Below, piece after piece: positions 16,344 through 24,929 of a DNA stretch of 37,676 bases. How positions within the stretch are numbered: the first letter of the stretch is position 1; every line of letters starts with the position of its first letter. Origin of the DNA: Anaerolineae bacterium (GTDB lineage: Bacteria; Chloroflexota; Anaerolineae; UBA1429). The notes below the pieces were generated by a model, which saw nothing but the letters and a program-made list of their open reading frames with translations, made no database searches and was not told the DNA's origin. Made by a program: the position numbers and the translations under genes. The stretch covers positions 1-37,676 of the forward strand of contig JAGGYI010000021.1 of NCBI GenBank assembly GCA_021162655.1. Reading direction: 5' to 3'.

Positions 16344-17681
16344 TCAAGGGGTATAGGGGATAGCGTTCGTCTCGTCGACGATCAGGCCCCAGCGATCGCG
16401 ATAGGCCTGGGCGGGGAGGAATTCGTCTTTTGTGCGTTGGAGCCACTGTTGGAGCTCTTGTTCAAGGAGGTCCTGGAGCTTGGAATAATCTGGGTCATTC
16501 ACCAGATTGTGAAGTTGGAAGGGGTCACGTAGATTGTCATAAAGTAGCCAGGGACCTTGTAGTGTCTTGACATAAGTAAAACGCTCTGTACGAATGCCAC
16601 GCCACTCCGGACAGTGTGGACATTCTCCAAAGGGAGCGATGGATTCAATCAGTGCGGAATTGGGACGTGGCCCTGGAGCGCCTGTTAGGAGATGAGAGAG
16701 GTCGTTGCCCTCGACGCTTGGGGGGATGGGGGCATGGGCTAAGCGAAGGAGGGTTGGCATGAGGTCTACCACATTAAAGGGGGTAGAGACTATTCGCGCT
16801 CCTCTTTGGATAGCAGGATAGCGAATGATGAGGGGCACGAGGATGGATTCATCCCAGGGCCATTGCTTTCGCCATACACCTTGGGATCCAAGCATATCGC
16901 CATGATCGGAGGTGAAGACGAAGATCGTTCGTTCAGCTTGTCCTGATTCCTCCAGAGCTGAGAGGAGCCACCCTAGAGCCTCGTCTAGGGCAGTGATGTG
17001 TGCATAATATCCAGCCAGGGATTCGCGATCTGCTTTGGGCACATTTGGGCGCACATATATTTGCTCGGGGTCGTAGAGCTGAAGATACTTTTGGGGAACC
17101 TCTCGATAGGGGTTGTGGGGAGGGCCCCAAGAGAGGAAGAGACAATAGGGCCGCTCTTGGCCGTGGGTACGGATATACTCAATGGCGAGCCTTGTCTGTG
17201 CATGGGCATCATACCCTTGCCAGTAGAGAGGATCGGGAGTATCCCGATAGTAGATGGAATGGAAGTATTGGTGGGTGCAGTTCCCCACAGCCCAAAAGTC
17301 GAACCCCTGGCGCCTGGGCCCGGGAGGTGTGAAGCCACTGCGCTCGGGGCCGTCTAGGTGCCATTTGCCGATATAGGCCGTGTCATAGCCGGCTTCTTTG
17401 AGCACCTGGGCGATTGTAATCTCTTCTTCAGGGAGGCGTAGATCGTTGATGATCATCCCCGTACTTAATGGATAGCGCCCGGTGAGCAAGGATGCGCGAT
17501 AAGGGGTACATACTGGGCAACAGGCTACCGCGGTGGTAAAAGTGATTCCTTCGGTGGCAAGGCGGTCTAGGTTGGGGGTTTGCACGCAAGGATTGCCGGC
17601 GTATCCGGTTGCTTGGGCGCGCATTTGGTCGGCAAAGACAAAGACAATGTTGGGGCGAGGAAGTGAATCAAAAGAAGACAT
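16344..17681 (-). CDS. Type I sulfatase family protein (formylglycine-dependent arylsulfatase-like)
   Basis: PNIVFVFADQMRAQATGYAGNPCVQTPNLDRLATEG; CTPYRASLLTGRYP (CxPxR); YIGKWHLDG; VFTSDHGDMLGSQGVWRKQWPWDESILVPLIIRYP. Confidence 0.94.
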   Translation of the reverse strand: MSSFDSLPRPNIVFVFADQMRAQATGYAGNPCVQTPNLDRLATEGITFTTAVACCPVCTPYRASLLTGRYPLSTGMIINDLRLPEEEITIAQVLKEAGYDTAYIGKWHLDGPERSGFTPPGPRRQGFDFWAVGNCTHQYFHSIYYRDTPDPLYWQGYDAHAQTRLAIEYIRTHGQERPYCLFLSWGPPHNPYREVPQKYLQLYDPEQIYVRPNVPKADRESLAGYYAHITALDEALGWLLSALEESGQAERTIFVFTSDHGDMLGSQGVWRKQWPWDESILVPLIIRYPAIQRGARIVSTPFNVVDLMPTLLRLAHAPIPPSVEGNDLSHLLTGAPGPRPNSALIESIAPFGECPHCPEWRGIRTERFTYVKTLQGPWLLYDNLRDPFQLHNLVNDPDYSKLQDLLEQELQQWLQRTKDEFLPAQAYRDRWGLIVDETNAIPYTP

Positions 17682-17763
17682 GTTCTTCCCTCTCGCTGTA
17701 TTCCTCTGAGCTTACAATGCCTATAATATGGTAGTTCGAGCGATAAGGCAAAGGAGATAGCGC

Positions 17764-19086
17764 ATGGCCAAGGTAATCTTTAGTTTTGATACAGAGGACT
17801 ATATTAATCCTCAGGCTGAAGAGGCAGTTCTTCGTCTTGCTCACACTTTGGAAGGCGAGGGCGTGCGTGGGTGCTTTTGTGTAGTCGGAGAGGTGGCGGC
17901 TACGTGGAGGCGTCGAGGGAGCAATCAAGTGCTAGAAGCATTACGCCCACATGAGATTGCTAGCCATACCTGGCGCCATTCGTGGCATCCGAACATCGTG
18001 GAATATAGCGAAGACCCGGATTGGCATCGCTCTTTGGCGCGCTTTTTGCGCGAGGAGCGGTATTCCTGTGATCTCATAATGGATGTGTGTGGGCGAGATC
18101 GTCTGTGGGCTTTTGTCAAACCAGGGAATTCCCTTTCGGCTCAGGCGATTTATGGGTATACCCTTTTGGGTAGTCCTATCTTTGGGGATAGCTTCCTCGA
18201 GCTTGGGAAAGGACGGGGACTCTGGTTTTGCAATGCACTGAACCTCTCCTATTCAGTGAGTGTGGAGCCTCTAAGGGAGAGGGGAGCTTTATCAAGCTAC
18301 CAACAACGGTTGGATGAATGGGCAGAAAGGGAGCGAATCACTTTCTATGCGCATCCTTGTAACCTGGTTTTGGCCAAATTCTGGGATACAGTGAACATGG
18401 CTCATGAGAACCGTCCCTGGGGAGATTGGTTACCCTCGCCTCCTCGTCCGCGGGAGGAAGTGGAACGATTTTTTGCTTCCTTTCGCGAGTTCATTCGGCT
18501 CCTCAAAGCTCATGGCGGCTTTGAGTTCGAGACCTATGAAGAAGTATGGCGACGGTATCAGGGGGAAATTCACCGTTCTTTGACCCTTCCCCGTTTGGTG
18601 CCGCTGTTGCAAAAGGCTGCGCAAAAGTTGACCTGGCAAACGGCCGAAGAAGGGGAAACCTTTTCTCCTGCTGAGCTCTTTGCTGCAGCGGTGGACTTTT
18701 TATCCGGGCGCCAGGATCCTTGGGGAGCTTGGGGAGTGATGGGGCCCATAGAAGAGCTGGCCAGCATAAAGGACCCCATCACTCTGCCAGCTAAAGACGT
18801 ACGTAAGGCTGCCGAGGCGTTAGCTCCTATTACCTACGTTCCTGGCCAAGTGCAGATAGGACGGGCTCTTTTGGGCCCCGGAGACATGTTGCGCGCTATG
18901 ACCCAGGTACTTGCAGGAAGGGAGCGGGTGAATCTCTCCCCTGGCCCTCAACTTCCTGAAGCTGCTGCCTGGCCACAATTGGCCCAGTTTGTTACCTCTG
19001 GGCAGTGGTGCCATCCTCCAGAGTGGACCAGCGAGCTTGTGGATAAACGGCTGCGTTGGCAATCTTGGACGATCCGGCCAGCCTAA
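17764..19086 (+). CDS. Polysaccharide deacetylase (NodB)-like protein with a C-terminal extension of unknown function
   Basis: FSFDTEDYINPQAEEAV, GVRGCFCVVGEVA, HEIASHTWRHSWHP (HxxxH-like), ITFYAHPCN; ~150 aa C-terminal to the NodB-like part not recognised. Confidence 0.8.
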   Translation: MAKVIFSFDTEDYINPQAEEAVLRLAHTLEGEGVRGCFCVVGEVAATWRRRGSNQVLEALRPHEIASHTWRHSWHPNIVEYSEDPDWHRSLARFLREERYSCDLIMDVCGRDRLWAFVKPGNSLSAQAIYGYTLLGSPIFGDSFLELGKGRGLWFCNALNLSYSVSVEPLRERGALSSYQQRLDEWAERERITFYAHPCNLVLAKFWDTVNMAHENRPWGDWLPSPPRPREEVERFFASFREFIRLLKAHGGFEFETYEEVWRRYQGEIHRSLTLPRLVPLLQKAAQKLTWQTAEEGETFSPAELFAAAVDFLSGRQDPWGAWGVMGPIEELASIKDPITLPAKDVRKAAEALAPITYVPGQVQIGRALLGPGDMLRAMTQVLAGRERVNLSPGPQLPEAAAWPQLAQFVTSGQWCHPPEWTSELVDKRLRWQSWTIRPA

Positions 19087-20240
19087 TCGGGCATGACGAT
19101 TTCGTAAAATTGGTGTGTTTCCGCAGATTCTCGAGCCCATAGGCAGGTGAGGGCACTCAGGATCCCCGCGGAAATGGGGCTTCTAGAGGGGGTACCGTCG
19201 CGCATGGCCCGCAAAAAGTCTAAAACGAGTTCCCTATCCCCCCCAAAGTGAGACATCTGCCCACTGAAATCGATGGTTTCTACCACTGGGGAGTGGTGTT
19301 TGTAAATGCGGATCGTATTTTCGTACCAATCAAAGTGGATCGTACCACGGTAGCCGTATAGACGGGCGCCCCGACGTGCAGCTTTGAGCCTGGCGAAAAA
19401 GTTCTGAGTGTAGCTGGCCTGGACGCCATTTTCGTATTCGAGAATGACGTTTCCGATGTCTTGATTGCGAATCCCTTTGGCAAAGAGGCACATTCTATCA
19501 GGGTCCGGCTCGACTTTTTCACCTTGAAAGCGTTGGTAGAAGAGGTTAAAAGGACTTTCTGGGCAGGTTTCCCACTCGTCGCAATCAACGCAACGAAGAT
19601 CAAAAGGCTTGTCCCCACCGTATATCCTTTGAGCCTTCATTGCGGCGACGAGGTGAGGGCGTTGACCTAGAAGATAATAAATATAGTCGAAATCGTGGGT
19701 GGCTTTTTGTAAAAAGAGCCCTCCTGTTTGATCATAGTTTCGGTACCATCTGCGGTAGTAAACGTCTCCATAGGGGACGTCGTTGAAAGCGACTACGTGT
19801 TCGACTGTTCCGATTTCGTCTGCTTCGATGATCTGCTTAACTGTCTGTACGATTGGCGTGAGCCGAAGAGGAAAGGAGACAACGACGGGCGCAGTCACCT
19901 GGCGGAAGGCAGCATCTAGCGCTTTGAGCTGTTCAAAGGAAATAGCTACAGGCTTTTCCAAAAAGAGGGGGATATTGTATGGGGCGACTTTGCAAGCCAT
20001 GGGGGTATGCAGATAGCAACGCGTCCCGATCATTACCCCATCTAGCTCTTCGTTGGCCAGCATTTCGTCTGCGTCGGTATAAAAGTGTGTTTCCTCCAGA
20101 AAAGGGTCAGCACTTGCCTGAATCTCTTTTGCCCGAGGGTCCGCAATGGCTGTGACGCGATATGGGGTGTCGTACATTCCCATTCTTTTGGCCATGTTGG
20201 AGATCCGTCGACCATAGCCGATGATGCCTACTTTGAGCAC
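19083..20240 (-). CDS. Gfo/Idh/MocA-family oxidoreductase
   Basis: MLKVGIIGYGRRISNMAKR...VTAIADPRAKEI...PLFLEKPVAISFEQLKAL. Its stop overlaps the stop of the convergent NodB-like gene. Confidence 0.9.
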   Translation of the reverse strand: MLKVGIIGYGRRISNMAKRMGMYDTPYRVTAIADPRAKEIQASADPFLEETHFYTDADEMLANEELDGVMIGTRCYLHTPMACKVAPYNIPLFLEKPVAISFEQLKALDAAFRQVTAPVVVSFPLRLTPIVQTVKQIIEADEIGTVEHVVAFNDVPYGDVYYRRWYRNYDQTGGLFLQKATHDFDYIYYLLGQRPHLVAAMKAQRIYGGDKPFDLRCVDCDEWETCPESPFNLFYQRFQGEKVEPDPDRMCLFAKGIRNQDIGNVILEYENGVQASYTQNFFARLKAARRGARLYGYRGTIHFDWYENTIRIYKHHSPVVETIDFSGQMSHFGGDRELVLDFLRAMRDGTPSRSPISAGILSALTCLWARESAETHQFYEIVMPD

Positions 20241-20353: not shown

Positions 20354-21955
20354 TTATTCCTCTAGGTATCCATCAAGAGGAGGCAGGCAGACCATTCTTA
20401 CTCGCTGTACGTTGGGAACCTGCAAGAACTTGGGCATGAGCTCAGGGGGAACCTTTTCATCCAGGCCTAGGATCATAATCGAAGGCCCTCCTCGGCGCAC
20501 GCGGCTCATTTGGACAAAGGAGATGTTGATGTCTGCGCGCCCGAGGATTTGCCCCATGCCGCCGACAATGCCGGGACGGTCGTGATGAAGATCGACGAGC
20601 ATATGGCCTTGGACAACACAGTCGAGCCTCTGGCCATCGAGCATGACAAGGTGAGGTTCTCCTTGAATGATAGTCCCCGAGATACTGCGTTCCTCTGGGA
20701 CATTGGGCATGCGGGCGGAGATAAGGCTTTCGAAATGCTCTCGGCGTGAGGTGTGCCGTGTCTCAGAGATAGAAAGCCCACGTTGTTTCGCTACTCTAAA
20801 GGCGTTAACGATGTTGACAGGCTCGGCGCTGATAGGGCCCAGAAGACCTGCCAGAAAAGCAGAGCTAAGGATTTGCGTATTGTATTCGCAAATTTTGCCT
20901 TCGTAGATAAGTTCAATTTTGCTTGTCAATTCCCCGTGCCACTGGACGAAAAAGCTCCCCAGCCGCTGAGCGAGGTCGACATAGGGCTGGAGAAACTCTA
21001 GTGCCTTGGGAGGAAGGTAGGGGACGTTGACCGGATTGGAAGGGATGCGTCCTTCCAAAACATCGATGACCGAGCGAGCTACGTCTAGAGCGACAGAGGC
21101 TTGAGCCTCAGCTGTGGATGCACCGAGGTGAGGGGTGGCGATGACATTGGGCAGGCGGACGAGCTCGTTTCCTATGGCGGGTTCTACTTCAAAGACGTCC
21201 AGAGCGGCTCCGGCGATGCGTCCTTCTTTGAGCGCGGCCGCAAGGGCTTGCTCATCGATGATTCCTCCTCGAGCACAGTTGATGATGTAAGCGGAGGGTT
21301 TTACAAGGGCTAGTTGTTCTGCTCCAATCATCCCCCGAGTCTGAGGGGTGAGAGGAGTATGGATGGAGATAAAGTCTGCTTGCGAGAGAAGCTCATCTAG
21401 GCTGGTTAGTTTCACTCCGGAGGAGGCTGCGCGTTCAGGGGAGATGTAAGGATCGAAAGCGATGATCTGCATCTCCAATCCCCGAGCTTTGGAGGCAACA
21501 AGGGAGCCGATGCGTCCTAGCCCCACAAGGCCTAGAATTTTGCCACGCACTTCGATGCCCTGGAGGGTACCTTTCTCCCAGCGGCCTTCCTTGAGGGAGG
21601 AAATTGCAGAGTAGAGACGGCGGGCCAGGGTGAGAATCAAGGCGATGGTATGTTCTGCAACAGCATTGCTGTTCCCTGTAGGAGCATTGACAACGACGAT
21701 GCCGCGATTTGTGGCTGCTTCGACGTCGATGTTATCCACCCCAGTGCCGGCCCGACCGATGACGCGCAATTTATTCCCTGCGGCGATGATCTCTGCAGTG
21801 ACCTGGGTACGGCTGCGAACAATGAGCGCATCGTACTCTTTGATAACCTGGAGGAGTTCCTCAGCCGAGAGTCCTTTTTTTACATCCACTTGGGCATGTT
21901 TGCGAAGGTATTGCAACCCGGCTTCGCTGAGTGTTTCGGTAACTAGAATGTGCAT
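20354..21955 (-). CDS. serA: D-3-phosphoglycerate dehydrogenase, long form with ASB and C-terminal ACT domains
   Basis: MHILVTETLSEAGL; GRAGTGVDNIDVEAATNRGIVVVNAPTGNSNAVAEHT; GLVGLGRIGSLVASKA; CARGGIIDEQALAAALKEGRIAGAALDVFEVEP; ACT HDRPGIVGGMGQILGRADINISFVQMSR. Start moved to 21955. Confidence 0.96.
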   Translation of the reverse strand: MHILVTETLSEAGLQYLRKHAQVDVKKGLSAEELLQVIKEYDALIVRSRTQVTAEIIAAGNKLRVIGRAGTGVDNIDVEAATNRGIVVVNAPTGNSNAVAEHTIALILTLARRLYSAISSLKEGRWEKGTLQGIEVRGKILGLVGLGRIGSLVASKARGLEMQIIAFDPYISPERAASSGVKLTSLDELLSQADFISIHTPLTPQTRGMIGAEQLALVKPSAYIINCARGGIIDEQALAAALKEGRIAGAALDVFEVEPAIGNELVRLPNVIATPHLGASTAEAQASVALDVARSVIDVLEGRIPSNPVNVPYLPPKALEFLQPYVDLAQRLGSFFVQWHGELTSKIELIYEGKICEYNTQILSSAFLAGLLGPISAEPVNIVNAFRVAKQRGLSISETRHTSRREHFESLISARMPNVPEERSISGTIIQGEPHLVMLDGQRLDCVVQGHMLVDLHHDRPGIVGGMGQILGRADINISFVQMSRVRRGGPSIMILGLDEKVPPELMPKFLQVPNVQRVRMVCLPPLDGYLEE

Positions 21956-21980: not shown

Positions 21981-23261
21981 TTAGTATAAAGGGTTAAAAA
22001 CAAGACCAGTCAGCAACTTGGGGTAGAAATAGGTGCTCGTTGGGGGCATGGGTATGTCGTGAACGGCGGCCGTCCAGACCTGATCGATCCGAGTAGGATT
22101 AAGGATGAAAGCCGCTTTGGCCTGTCCTGTACGAACCATTTCCGCAGCCTTGTTTTCGTCAATGGTATAAGAGACGTGATCTGTAGTTGAAAGAACATGA
22201 GGTGGTAAACCCAAGAGGGGTTCTAGGATCAGCCTTTGCAAGATGACGACGTCCAGTTCGGCGAGTTCTGAAGGCAAGAATCTCTGCAAGGATTGGATGG
22301 CTCGTCTTTTGTCCTTAAGCTTAAGGATCCACTTTCCTGTTTTGGGAAGGTAGAGCCCGATGGCGATGGTCCTTTTGGCCTCTCGCGCGATCTCTAACGA
22401 GAGGGACTTTTGGTCTTTAACCGGCTGAAGGTTGAAGCTTTTCTCCAAGGCTTTGAGGAGCTCTTCTTCCGAGAGGCTCATCGCGCCGAGCACCCGGTGA
22501 GTAGCCAGGATACAGATACCCGGATCTTCTGCAGCGCTGAGATAGATAAGAGTGTAATCATAAGGCTGAGGACTAGGAGGATCCCCCTTTGCTTCTCGGC
22601 ATTCCTTTTGGTAGGCAAGGGCTGTTTCGTAGCGATGGTGCCCATCTGCAATGACTATCTCACGCTTTGCAAGGGTTTGGCAGATTGCCTCGATCGCTTG
22701 GGGATGGGTGATTCGCCAGAAGATATGTTGAACGTGTTCTTCGTCTTCAAAAGAAAGCAGAGGGGCCTCTTCTCGAGACGTTAGCCAATGGAGGACCTCT
22801 TGATCGGGATCGCGATAAAGGCCGAACACGGGACTCATGTTTGTTCGGGTAGCCCGTAGGAGCTTGAGTCGATCTAGTCGGGGGGCTTGGCGGGTGTATT
22901 CATGCCGGTGGATGCTTTGCCCCCAGGGCTGGAGAAGGATACGGGCGAGGAATCCGGTTCGGGTTCTCCTCTGGTCGTTTGGAAGAGAGAACGTTTGTTG
23001 ATAGCCATAGAGAGCAGGGGTCTGGTCTTGAATGAGGATTCTTTGAGTGATCCAGCGATGTAATGTCTGGGCCGCGGCCTGATGCCAGTTCTCTTGAGAG
23101 TCATCGCTTTTGAGGATCAAGCGCACCACGTTATAAGGATCTCGTTGCAGAAGTTGCTTTTTGAGCTCATAGTCGATGACGTCGTAGGGCGGTGCAAAAA
23201 CCCCGGGCCGAGCGTATTGAGGATTGTAACGTAGCCCTCGGAAAGGTTTGATTTCTACCAT
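21981..23261 (-). CDS. DUF1015-family protein
   Basis: MVEIKPFRGLRYNPQYARPGVFAPPYDVIDYELKKQL; NVVRLIL; EIVIADGHHRYETALAYQKE; YTLIYLSAAEDPGICILATHRVL. Start moved from 23396 to 23261; the upstream part is leader RNA. Confidence 0.92.
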   Translation of the reverse strand: MVEIKPFRGLRYNPQYARPGVFAPPYDVIDYELKKQLLQRDPYNVVRLILKSDDSQENWHQAAAQTLHRWITQRILIQDQTPALYGYQQTFSLPNDQRRTRTGFLARILLQPWGQSIHRHEYTRQAPRLDRLKLLRATRTNMSPVFGLYRDPDQEVLHWLTSREEAPLLSFEDEEHVQHIFWRITHPQAIEAICQTLAKREIVIADGHHRYETALAYQKECREAKGDPPSPQPYDYTLIYLSAAEDPGICILATHRVLGAMSLSEEELLKALEKSFNLQPVKDQKSLSLEIAREAKRTIAIGLYLPKTGKWILKLKDKRRAIQSLQRFLPSELAELDVVILQRLILEPLLGLPPHVLSTTDHVSYTIDENKAAEMVRTGQAKAAFILNPTRIDQVWTAAVHDIPMPPTSTYFYPKLLTGLVFNPLY

Positions 23262-23290: not shown

Positions 23291-23317
23291 AAAAAGCCAG
23301 CTTTCGAAAAAGCTGGC
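23291..23317 (-). terminator. Intrinsic terminator inside the DUF1015-serA leader
   Basis: Minus strand GCCAGCTTT-TTCG-AAAGCTGGC-TTTTT: 9-bp perfect stem, 4-nt loop, T tract. Confidence 0.88.
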
Positions 23318-23408
23318 GATAGAATTTGCCAGCGCCCGTCTCACTTCCCAGTGAGCAGACGGCGCGCGTTGCCTTCCACCTGGCGCGCATGGCCAAGTTT
23401 TGTTTCTA
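23291..23408 (-). ncRNA. Candidate structured 5' leader (riboswitch or attenuator-like) of the DUF1015-serA operon, ending in an intrinsic terminator
   Basis: Lies between a near-consensus minus-strand promoter and the DUF1015 start codon. Has multiple nested complementary segments and mutually exclusive P1, antiterminator and terminator pairings (see findings). Confidence 0.65.
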
Positions 23409-23413
23409 AAGTC

Positions 23414-23442
23414 ATTCTATCATAGAGGGGAGATTGTGTCAA
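23414..23442 (-). promoter_or_regulatory. Sigma-70-type promoter of the DUF1015-serA operon
   Basis: Minus strand TTGACA-N17-TAGAAT. Confidence 0.8.
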
Positions 23443-23468
23443 AAGGAGCGATCTTGTAAGGGATGTCT

Positions 23469-23497
23469 TTGCGACTGTCTGGCGATGATGGTATAAT
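23469..23497 (+). promoter_or_regulatory. Sigma-70-type promoter of the glycan operon
   Basis: TTGCGA-N17-TATAAT, 37 bp upstream of the wzt-like ATG. Confidence 0.75.
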
Positions 23498-23534
23498 CCG
23501 ACTGCTCCGAAGCAAGTGCCCCGGTGAGCGAAAG

Positions 23535-24929
23535 ATGCCAGTTATTGATGTCGAGCATGTTTCCAAAAGTTTTTACCTTTACCCAGATCGCCCGCGTTCG
23601 TTCCAAGAGCTGGTTGTGAACCTTTTCCGCCGCCGCGGAGAAAGGACACCGAGTCGCCAAGTGCTCTGGGCCTTGAGGGATGTCTCGTTTCGGGTCGAGG
23701 CAGGGGAAACCCTGGGGATCATTGGAGCGAATGGGTCAGGCAAAAGCACTTGTCTCAAATTATTGACCCGAATACTCGAGCCAACGGAGGGGAAGATCAC
23801 CGTCAAAGGGCGAGTCTCGGCTTTGTTAGAGCTAGGAGCTGGCTTTCATCCAGAGCTCACAGGAAGGGAAAATATCTTTTTGCACGGCTCTGTGCTGGGA
23901 ATGAGCCGTAAGGAGATGAAGCAGCGCTTTGATGATATCGTTGCTTTTGCCGAGTTGGAACGTTTCATCGATATCCCCGTCAAGTTTTATTCCTCTGGCA
24001 TGTATGTGCGTTTGGCCTTTGCGACGGCGATTAATGTAAGCCCCGATATTCTCCTTGTGGATGAGGTCCTTGCTGTGGGTGACCAGAGCTTCCAAGAGAA
24101 GTGTTTGGAGCGTATCCATGAACTGAAAGCCGAGGGTGTGACAATCATTTTTGTTTCGCATAGCCTTGATGCGGTGCGAAATCTCTGTGATCGAGCTATC
24201 TGGTTAGATCAAGGCATCCTTCGGGAGGATGGAGTAACGGATGTCGTCGTAGCTCGTTATTTGCAGCATGTGTACGAGCGCGAGGAAGAGAAAGCCTTGG
24301 CGGCTCAGGAGGCGAGTCGCCAGCGGAGAGAAAGGGCGGTTGCTCAGGAGGGATCTGAGGAGGAAGAGAAGGGGGCCTCAGCCGAGCAGGAAGAGCAGGA
24401 TCATGCTGAGGGGCGTGAAGTTCAGAATGTGGAGAGTGAGTCCGATCCGCTGGCCCGATATCGAAACCGCTGGGGCTCTCGCCAGGCTGAGATAGTGGAC
24501 GTCTATTTCTTGAATGAGGCGGGAGAGAGACGGCTGCTTTTTGCGACTGGCGAGCCGATGCAAATCGTTATTCGCTATCGAGCTCACGAACGGATCGAAC
24601 ATCCCATGTTTGGCCTGGCCATTCACCGTAGTGATGGATTGCAGATTAATGGTCCAAACAACATTTTTGCCGATTTTGACATCCCCTTTATCCAGGGAGA
24701 GGGAGAAGTGCGTTACATAATGGAAAGTCTGCCTCTTTTGGAAGGAGCATATTATGTGACGGCTGCACTTTATGACACGGATGGAACTCATGCCTACGAT
24801 CATCAGGCACTCTATTACCGCTTTCGTGTGCATCGGGGTCAAGTTGGAGAACGGTATGGAGTGATCTATATCCCCGCCAAGTGGGCCCATTTCCCCCATG
24901 GGGCGGAGGAAGGGGAGGCGAATCGATGA
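23535..24929 (+). CDS. Polysaccharide ABC transporter ATP-binding protein (Wzt-like) with C-terminal carbohydrate-binding domain
   Basis: Walker A GANGSGKST; YSSGMYVRLAFATA signature; DILLVDEVLAVGD Walker B; charged linker, then a Wzt_C-like domain (IVIRYRAHERIEHPMFGLAIHRSDGLQINGPN). Start moved to 23535. Confidence 0.93.
   Translation: MPVIDVEHVSKSFYLYPDRPRSFQELVVNLFRRRGERTPSRQVLWALRDVSFRVEAGETLGIIGANGSGKSTCLKLLTRILEPTEGKITVKGRVSALLELGAGFHPELTGRENIFLHGSVLGMSRKEMKQRFDDIVAFAELERFIDIPVKFYSSGMYVRLAFATAINVSPDILLVDEVLAVGDQSFQEKCLERIHELKAEGVTIIFVSHSLDAVRNLCDRAIWLDQGILREDGVTDVVVARYLQHVYEREEEKALAAQEASRQRRERAVAQEGSEEEEKGASAEQEEQDHAEGREVQNVESESDPLARYRNRWGSRQAEIVDVYFLNEAGERRLLFATGEPMQIVIRYRAHERIEHPMFGLAIHRSDGLQINGPNNIFADFDIPFIQGEGEVRYIMESLPLLEGAYYVTAALYDTDGTHAYDHQALYYRFRVHRGQVGERYGVIYIPAKWAHFPHGAEEGEANR

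Follow-up and report, generated by a model that had tools for sequence, protein, structure and literature searches.

A putative transcription attenuator before the DUF1015-serA operon in one family of Anaerolineae

Introduction

In a contig of an Anaerolineae bacterium (GCA_021162655.1, JAGGYI010000021.1, 37,676 nt, analysed as a whole and called the window below), a gene for a DUF1015 protein and serA are preceded by a short leader that ends in an intrinsic terminator. The locus raises the question whether this leader controls the operon and, if so, what kind of RNA element it is and what reads it. An earlier note on the same DNA had proposed a new riboswitch or attenuator, with a closing stem P1 around an aptamer, an antiterminator and a terminator.

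Results

Promoter, leader and operon

The features of the locus were as follows.

23437-23442, minus strand: -35 hexamer TTGACA, read from the sequence (letters 23442-23437)
23414-23419, minus strand: -10 hexamer TAGAAT, preceded by TG and separated from the -35 hexamer by a 17-nt spacer
23291-23407, minus strand: leader RNA of ~115 nt, with its start (~23407) predicted from the promoter and its 3' end at the terminator U-run
23296-23317, minus strand: intrinsic terminator GCCAGCUUU-UUCG-AAAGCUGGC
23291-23295, minus strand: terminator U-run of five U
21981-23261, minus strand: DUF1015 gene (PF06245, E 2.6e-85), first gene of the operon, ATG at 23261
20354-21955, minus strand: serA, D-3-phosphoglycerate dehydrogenase (TIGR01327 PGDH, E 4e-191), second gene
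23463-24929, plus strand: ABC transporter ATP-binding gene with a Wzt C-terminal domain, divergent and beyond the leader promoter

The promoter TTGACA-N17-TAGAAT scored 11 of 12 against the consensus, and the serA ATG at 21955 lies inside the listed open reading frame. The near-consensus promoter, the ~115-nt leader and the strong terminator before the DUF1015 ATG were thereby all located where the earlier note had read them. It had also described two copies of GCUGGC competing for one GCCAGC, and this was confirmed, the copies at 23333-23328 and 23301-23296 flanking the single GCCAGC at 23317-23312. Since the Wzt-type ABC transporter gene diverges on the plus strand, there is no gene upstream whose transcripts the terminator could end. 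The leader was more stable than dinucleotide shuffles (z -2.7; -3.0 in a second computation). Its supposed lack of resemblance to known RNA classes was borne out by cmscan against Rfam, which gave no match at gathering score in the window, none at E<=10 in the 251-nt leader region and none at E<=5 in 12 related loci. The serC element (RF00517) was rejected on this basis, with no cmscan match in the window or the 12 related loci, and a T-box was likewise rejected for want of a cmscan match.

On the other side of the promoter, a permease-like gene and several genes resembling glycosyltransferases come after the Wzt-type gene; together with it they probably form a polysaccharide export cluster. 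A promoter-like TTGCGA-N17-TATAAT at 23469-23497 on the plus strand may drive this cluster. Beside serA, the region 16344-20240 carries sulfatase-like and polysaccharide-deacetylase-like genes (both named by eye) and a Gfo/Idh/MocA oxidoreductase gene (by Pfam).

Predicted folds of the leader

Folding of the leader gave the following hairpins besides the terminator, of which A:B and B:C are mutually exclusive because strand B is common to both.

23362-23388, minus strand: predicted hairpin A:B, GCGCGC 23388-23383 with GCGCGC 23367-23362
23332-23365, minus strand: hairpin B:C, GCGCC-GUCU 23365-23357 with AGAC-GGGCGC 23341-23332, with an inner CUCAC-UGGGAA-GUGAG
23312-23333, minus strand: predicted antiterminator (C:D), GCUGGC 23333-23328 with GCCAGC 23317-23312

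Hairpin A:B had a predicted probability of ~0.45 in an RNA cut before the antiterminator. For B:C in the full RNA, the upper part GUCU:AGAC was predicted at 0.26-0.90 and the lower stem GCGCC:GGCGC (23365-23361 with 23336-23332) at only ~0.03. The terminator (D:E) had a probability near 1 in the full RNA. The pairing of GCUGGC with GCCAGC had been put forward as an antiterminator that excludes the terminator, and here the prediction agreed: its probability was >0.95 when the RNA ended in the terminator 5' arm, and matched arms were present in relatives.

The closing stem P1, drawn in the earlier note as eight pairs (23393-23385 with 23335-23328), did not appear as a predicted state. In an RNA cut after the P1 3' arm, the outer GCCA:UGGC reached ~0.5 and the inner GCGC:GCGC half ~0.01; in the full RNA, P1 remained <0.1. 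The GCGC stretches of the drawn stem were predicted to pair as A:B or B:C instead. With its inner half <2% and not conserved among relatives, P1 was rejected as the closing stem of an aptamer.

Recurrence in the host family

In the genome set, the host's order comprised one family with 15 genomes, the relatives being draft assemblies for the most part. Searching GTDB contigs yielded no family members beyond this set. DUF1015 was followed by serA in 13 of the 15 genomes, and a promoter scoring at least 10 of 12 stood before DUF1015 in 12 of these 13. As the earlier note had advised, DUF1015-serA leaders were collected from related genomes: the order promoter-leader-terminator-DUF1015-serA was detected by script in 10 of the 13, and genome G002 was added by inspection as an eleventh (stem CCAGCC/GGCUGG followed by six U). 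G014 showed a promoter and no clear terminator; G003 showed neither. The whole arrangement was absent from all 100 shuffled sets, and likewise from the 40 DUF1015 upstream regions that were taken as controls from other families of the class (0/40). Outside the host family, DUF1015 is often placed downstream of serA in the same class.

Genomes of one genus had related genes upstream of the leader, as did G001 and G007; elsewhere these genes differed, apart from a weak 49-residue match between the host (G000) and G006. As the upstream neighbours differ between most genera, the leader travels with the operon. The host genome contained 92 exact strong promoters, as against 0 for the reversed pattern. 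Among the 91 that were examined, a terminator between promoter and reading frame was present at only three others, one of which precedes a secD-like gene. The recurrence in the family, the absence from the controls and the rarity within the host genome together indicate that the arrangement is uncommon, linked to DUF1015-serA and characteristic of the family.

Some further leaders were observed during these searches. Elsewhere in the class, a terminator-like hairpin stood directly before the serA start codon at loci L198, L187, L190 and L192, at L198 also with a consensus promoter. Their sequences were unrelated to that of the window leader, and the class serA leaders outside the host family gave no credible Rfam match; attenuation of serA may have more than one origin in the class. 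Within the host genome, the secD-like gene (named by eye) at locus L250 (G000:C140:4590-4970) has, ahead of its Shine-Dalgarno sequence, a consensus promoter with a leader of 59 nt and a terminator. This locus lacks the short element described below and is another candidate attenuator. At locus L242 (G000:C113:2570-2950), ~40 nt and a strong terminator separate a promoter from a reading frame MAAEKISNKPWGQFSEADY...; it is likewise a candidate leader.

A short element shared by the leaders

The pattern GGC-N4-6-GYGCC (12-14 nt) was present in 11 of 12 leaders, with a mean of 0.75 and a maximum of 4 in shuffles; this count is optimistic, since the pattern was formulated after the sequences had been seen, which does not affect the pairwise alignment test given below. 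The window leader carries it twice.

23381-23395, minus strand: element copy a, TGGCCATGCGCGCCA, as in G002, G010 and G009
23361-23373, minus strand: element copy b, GGCAACGCGCGCC, as in G012, G013, G004 and G005; its GCGCC supplies the 5' arm of the hairpin that comes next

In most leaders, the hairpin that follows the element (B:C) takes its 5' arm from the GYGCC. The homologue of B:C is directly followed by a U-run in G012, G013, G004, G005, G009 and G001, and is itself the terminator there. The small GGC:GCC switch hairpin has a stem of only 3-4 bp, and its loop begins in most leaders with MAY ([CA]A[CU]), which is kept beyond pairing. GGC and GCC are spaced by 6, 7 or 8 nt, and the element lies ~10 to 64 nt from the predicted start.

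Leaders were also compared by pairwise local alignment, with the terminator 3' part and the promoter left out in most. Similarity was significant across genera, 10 of 66 pairs reaching p<0.01, including G000-G006, G012-G004, G010-G009, G010-G002 and G009-G014. The resulting network consisted of G000-G006, of G012-G013-G004-G005, and of G010-G002, G010-G009 and G009-G014. Weaker links joined these groups (G000-G012, p 0.02; G000-G010, p 0.035; G000-G002, p 0.055). A global MAFFT alignment of all leaders gave no common core.

Downstream of the other strong host promoters, the element was absent apart from one chance-like match inside a reading frame, and the other exact copies examined in the family genomes lay mostly within long open frames. 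Both observations indicate that it belongs to the DUF1015-serA operon. Only one second copy, in G010, was linked to a promoter; it is situated at the end of a contig and resembles an assembly overlap with the operon's contig. A second element before another gene was therefore rejected, as the copies are mostly in long open frames and that of G010 is a likely overlap.

Conservation of the antiterminator

In G000, G006, G010 and G002, hairpin B:C is followed by GCUGG, CCAGC, GCUGG and a U-run, i.e. by an added antiterminator/terminator pair. The antiterminator arms are GCUGGC/GCCAGC in the window (G000), GCUGGCAU/AUGCCAGC in G006, GCUGGUUU/AAACCAGC in G010 and GCUGG/CCAGC (5 nt) in G002. They match exactly over 6-8 nt in G000, G006 and G010, although the arm ends differ between leaders; the changes are matched in G006 and G010, and in part also in G002. 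Against shuffles, antiterminator strength stood out clearly only in G006 (p 0.010) and G010 (p 0.006); the window gave p 0.12, and relatives in which B:C is the terminator gave no signal.

Hairpin H1, which precedes the element in G012, G013, G004 and G005, showed changes on both sides at three positions, one of which RNAalifold counted as well, and the consensus fold of these four leaders contained compensatory changes in six pairs. The covariance model R1, built from four relatives, recovered only its own members with confidence and missed the window leader. With only 12 leaders, all of one family, a test for covariation has little power. The DUF1015 proteins of the relatives are 42-53% identical to that of the window, and no aptamer-sized conserved core was found among the 12 leaders.

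Candidate readers of the element

One ANTAR protein is encoded in 14 of the 15 family genomes. That of the host, an ANTAR response regulator (L295 3889-4485, minus strand, G000:C280), adjoins a sensor-kinase-like gene. Dual hexaloops with A1 and G4 were found in 0 of 12 leaders, nor was such a pair found around the ANTAR gene loci; as the dual hexaloop is absent from 12/12 leaders, identity with an ANTAR target RNA was rejected. CsrA reading AGGA loops was also rejected, csrA being present in 1 of the 15 family genomes, which is not the host. The RNA polymerase pause motif GG-N8-YG was not enriched (9 of 12 leaders, 8.8 in shuffles) and was set aside.

The DUF1015 protein (window 21981-23261) carries an invariant motif, IADGHHRYETAL, which in our view recalls ParB/serine-kinase (SerK) folds. 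A search of solved structures with its sequence gave no match. That DUF1015 is a free serine kinase or a phosphoserine-handling enzyme is our guess.

Discussion

By kind, the leader is very probably a transcription attenuator; it matches no Rfam family and is neither the serC element nor a Ser T-box. Comparison among the relatives shows that the arrangement itself is conserved and tied to DUF1015-serA, that four leaders have the antiterminator/terminator pair and that the short element is conserved. The operon very probably has a real, conserved cis-acting attenuator. This part of the original riboswitch/attenuator proposal stands, together with the mutually exclusive antiterminator and terminator and the lack of an Rfam match; the aptamer closed by P1 does not, P1 being unsupported and an aptamer-sized core missing from the 12 leaders.

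We infer the logic of the switch, its sign, the nature of its regulator and the signal as follows. RNA polymerase would start at ~23407, and the short leader would either stop at 23291 or be read through into DUF1015-serA. The choice would fall to successive, mutually exclusive hairpins, namely A:B (or, in its place, the small GGC:GCC switch hairpin), B:C, C:D and D:E. If A or the switch hairpin occupied B, C would be available to D, the antiterminator would form and the operon would be ON; if B:C paired, D would pair with E and transcription would terminate (OFF). In relatives with the shorter chain, where B:C itself is the terminator, the sign of control would be the same. The lower B:C stem, at ~3% in the full RNA, counts against this chain as far as equilibrium predictions go. 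At the 5' base of B:C, the regulator would read GGC-N4-6-GYGCC. Most likely, the element is held by a protein or some other trans factor, as in attenuation of the ANTAR or PyrR type, and this factor would respond to serine supply; gene content alone suggests serine or one-carbon metabolism as the signal, as the earlier note had also supposed. A protein would be the simplest and most likely reader because the stem has only 3-4 bp and the loop start MAY is conserved beyond pairing. For the statement as a whole, i.e. a family-specific transcription attenuator with a hairpin chain, a small and probably protein-read switch hairpin and serine supply as the signal, we consider the chances about even.

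Other explanations would account for parts of these data. The leader might be passive, a constitutive promoter with a partial terminator setting the expression level, or the source of an abundant short RNA, with no sensing involved. The rapid divergence of the sequence fits this, as does the fact that no signal or regulator was identified, and a strong promoter followed by a strong terminator would yield an abundant ~115-nt RNA. Such a leader would not need a conserved short element or matched antiterminator arms, however, and the arrangement is rare in the host genome and always at the same operon, so that we regard it as unlikely. Ribosome-mediated attenuation, in which stalling on a leader peptide with Ser and Cys codons would choose the hairpin, is quite unlikely. 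G000 and G006 share an open frame R-A-V-C-S-x-G-S...T-G-A-G with three isolated substitutions that are synonymous (by eye), and G004 has a closed reading frame with a GUG start and three Ser codons, but no Shine-Dalgarno sequence precedes these starts, whose positions differ. Moreover, Ser codons in closed leader reading frames were not above shuffles (6 vs 3.9, sd 2.4), a frame open in G012 is cut by TGA in its congener G013 (by eye), and the window frame continues into DUF1015.

A small-molecule riboswitch for serine, phosphoserine or a one-carbon compound, with the 5' part of the leader as aptamer, would agree with the attenuator architecture and its switchable antiterminator, with the biosynthetic operon, with the lack of a match to a known class and with loop bases of the short element conserved beyond pairing. 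Known riboswitch aptamers have a core of many invariant bases kept across phyla, whereas the 12 leaders of one family share just 12-14 nt, with a variable loop length and different flanking hairpins. P1 was unsupported, the four-relative model missed the window leader, and the lack of an aptamer-sized core among relatives with 42-53% identical DUF1015 proteins disfavours an aptamer; we consider this explanation unlikely. Least probable is a DNA operator, in which GGC-N4-6-GYGCC would bind a repressor just downstream of the promoter and the terminator would be separate. G000, G002 and G010 do carry an inverted repeat TGGC...GCCA soon after the predicted start, but a DNA-binding dimer would hardly tolerate a spacing of 6-8 and a distance of ~10 to 64 nt from the start, and the GYGCC half also takes part in the hairpin that follows. 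Returning to the attenuator with a hairpin chain, a bolder form of it is conceivable and rather unlikely: a new family-restricted RNA class in which the 12-14-nt switch hairpin at the terminator foot would sense serine or phosphoserine, directly or via an RNA-binding protein, with an extra hairpin relay gained in some genera and the sign unchanged.

RNA control of serA, in the literature that was found, is limited to T-boxes and perhaps the serC element; neither a serine riboswitch class nor the function of DUF1015 was the subject of any paper in this search. In alpha-proteobacteria, the serC element (RF00517) is a small leader after a near-consensus promoter and before serC-serA. Serine, threonine and vitamin B6 compounds yielded no ligand for it, and its authors suggested that a protein reads it, in the manner of PyrR (PMC1273637). 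The window leader likewise stands directly after a near-consensus promoter and before a serine-synthesis operon, but it has an intrinsic terminator before the gene, whereas the serC element acts on translation, where a GNRA-looped hairpin masks the ribosome site. The Ser T-box before serA of Paenibacillus polymyxa comprises 280 nt with stems I-III, a specifier codon and a 14-nt T-box (PMC8002221). As would be the case at our locus, it attenuates serA transcription by a choice between terminator and antiterminator, in response to serine supply; the window leader differs in having only ~115 nt. ANTAR targets (the eut, nas and ami leaders) are defined by two hairpins with hexaloops carrying A1 and G4 (PMC3369931). 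Our leaders resemble them in a small hairpin at the terminator 5' base with a minimum 3-bp stem and, in several leaders, a loop starting with A, yet the defining hexaloop pair occurs in none of the 12. Orphan premature-terminator leaders are also similar in their terminator close before the gene, alternative antiterminator and fast-evolving sensing part; the main text of that survey does not mention serA, serine or Chloroflexi (PMC2965389).

Few control elements are known outside the well-studied phyla, and the DUF1015-serA attenuator offers a defined place in which to seek a serine-responsive RNA regulator in this group. Because DUF1015 and serA would share one switch, the attenuator also supports a role of DUF1015 in serine metabolism.
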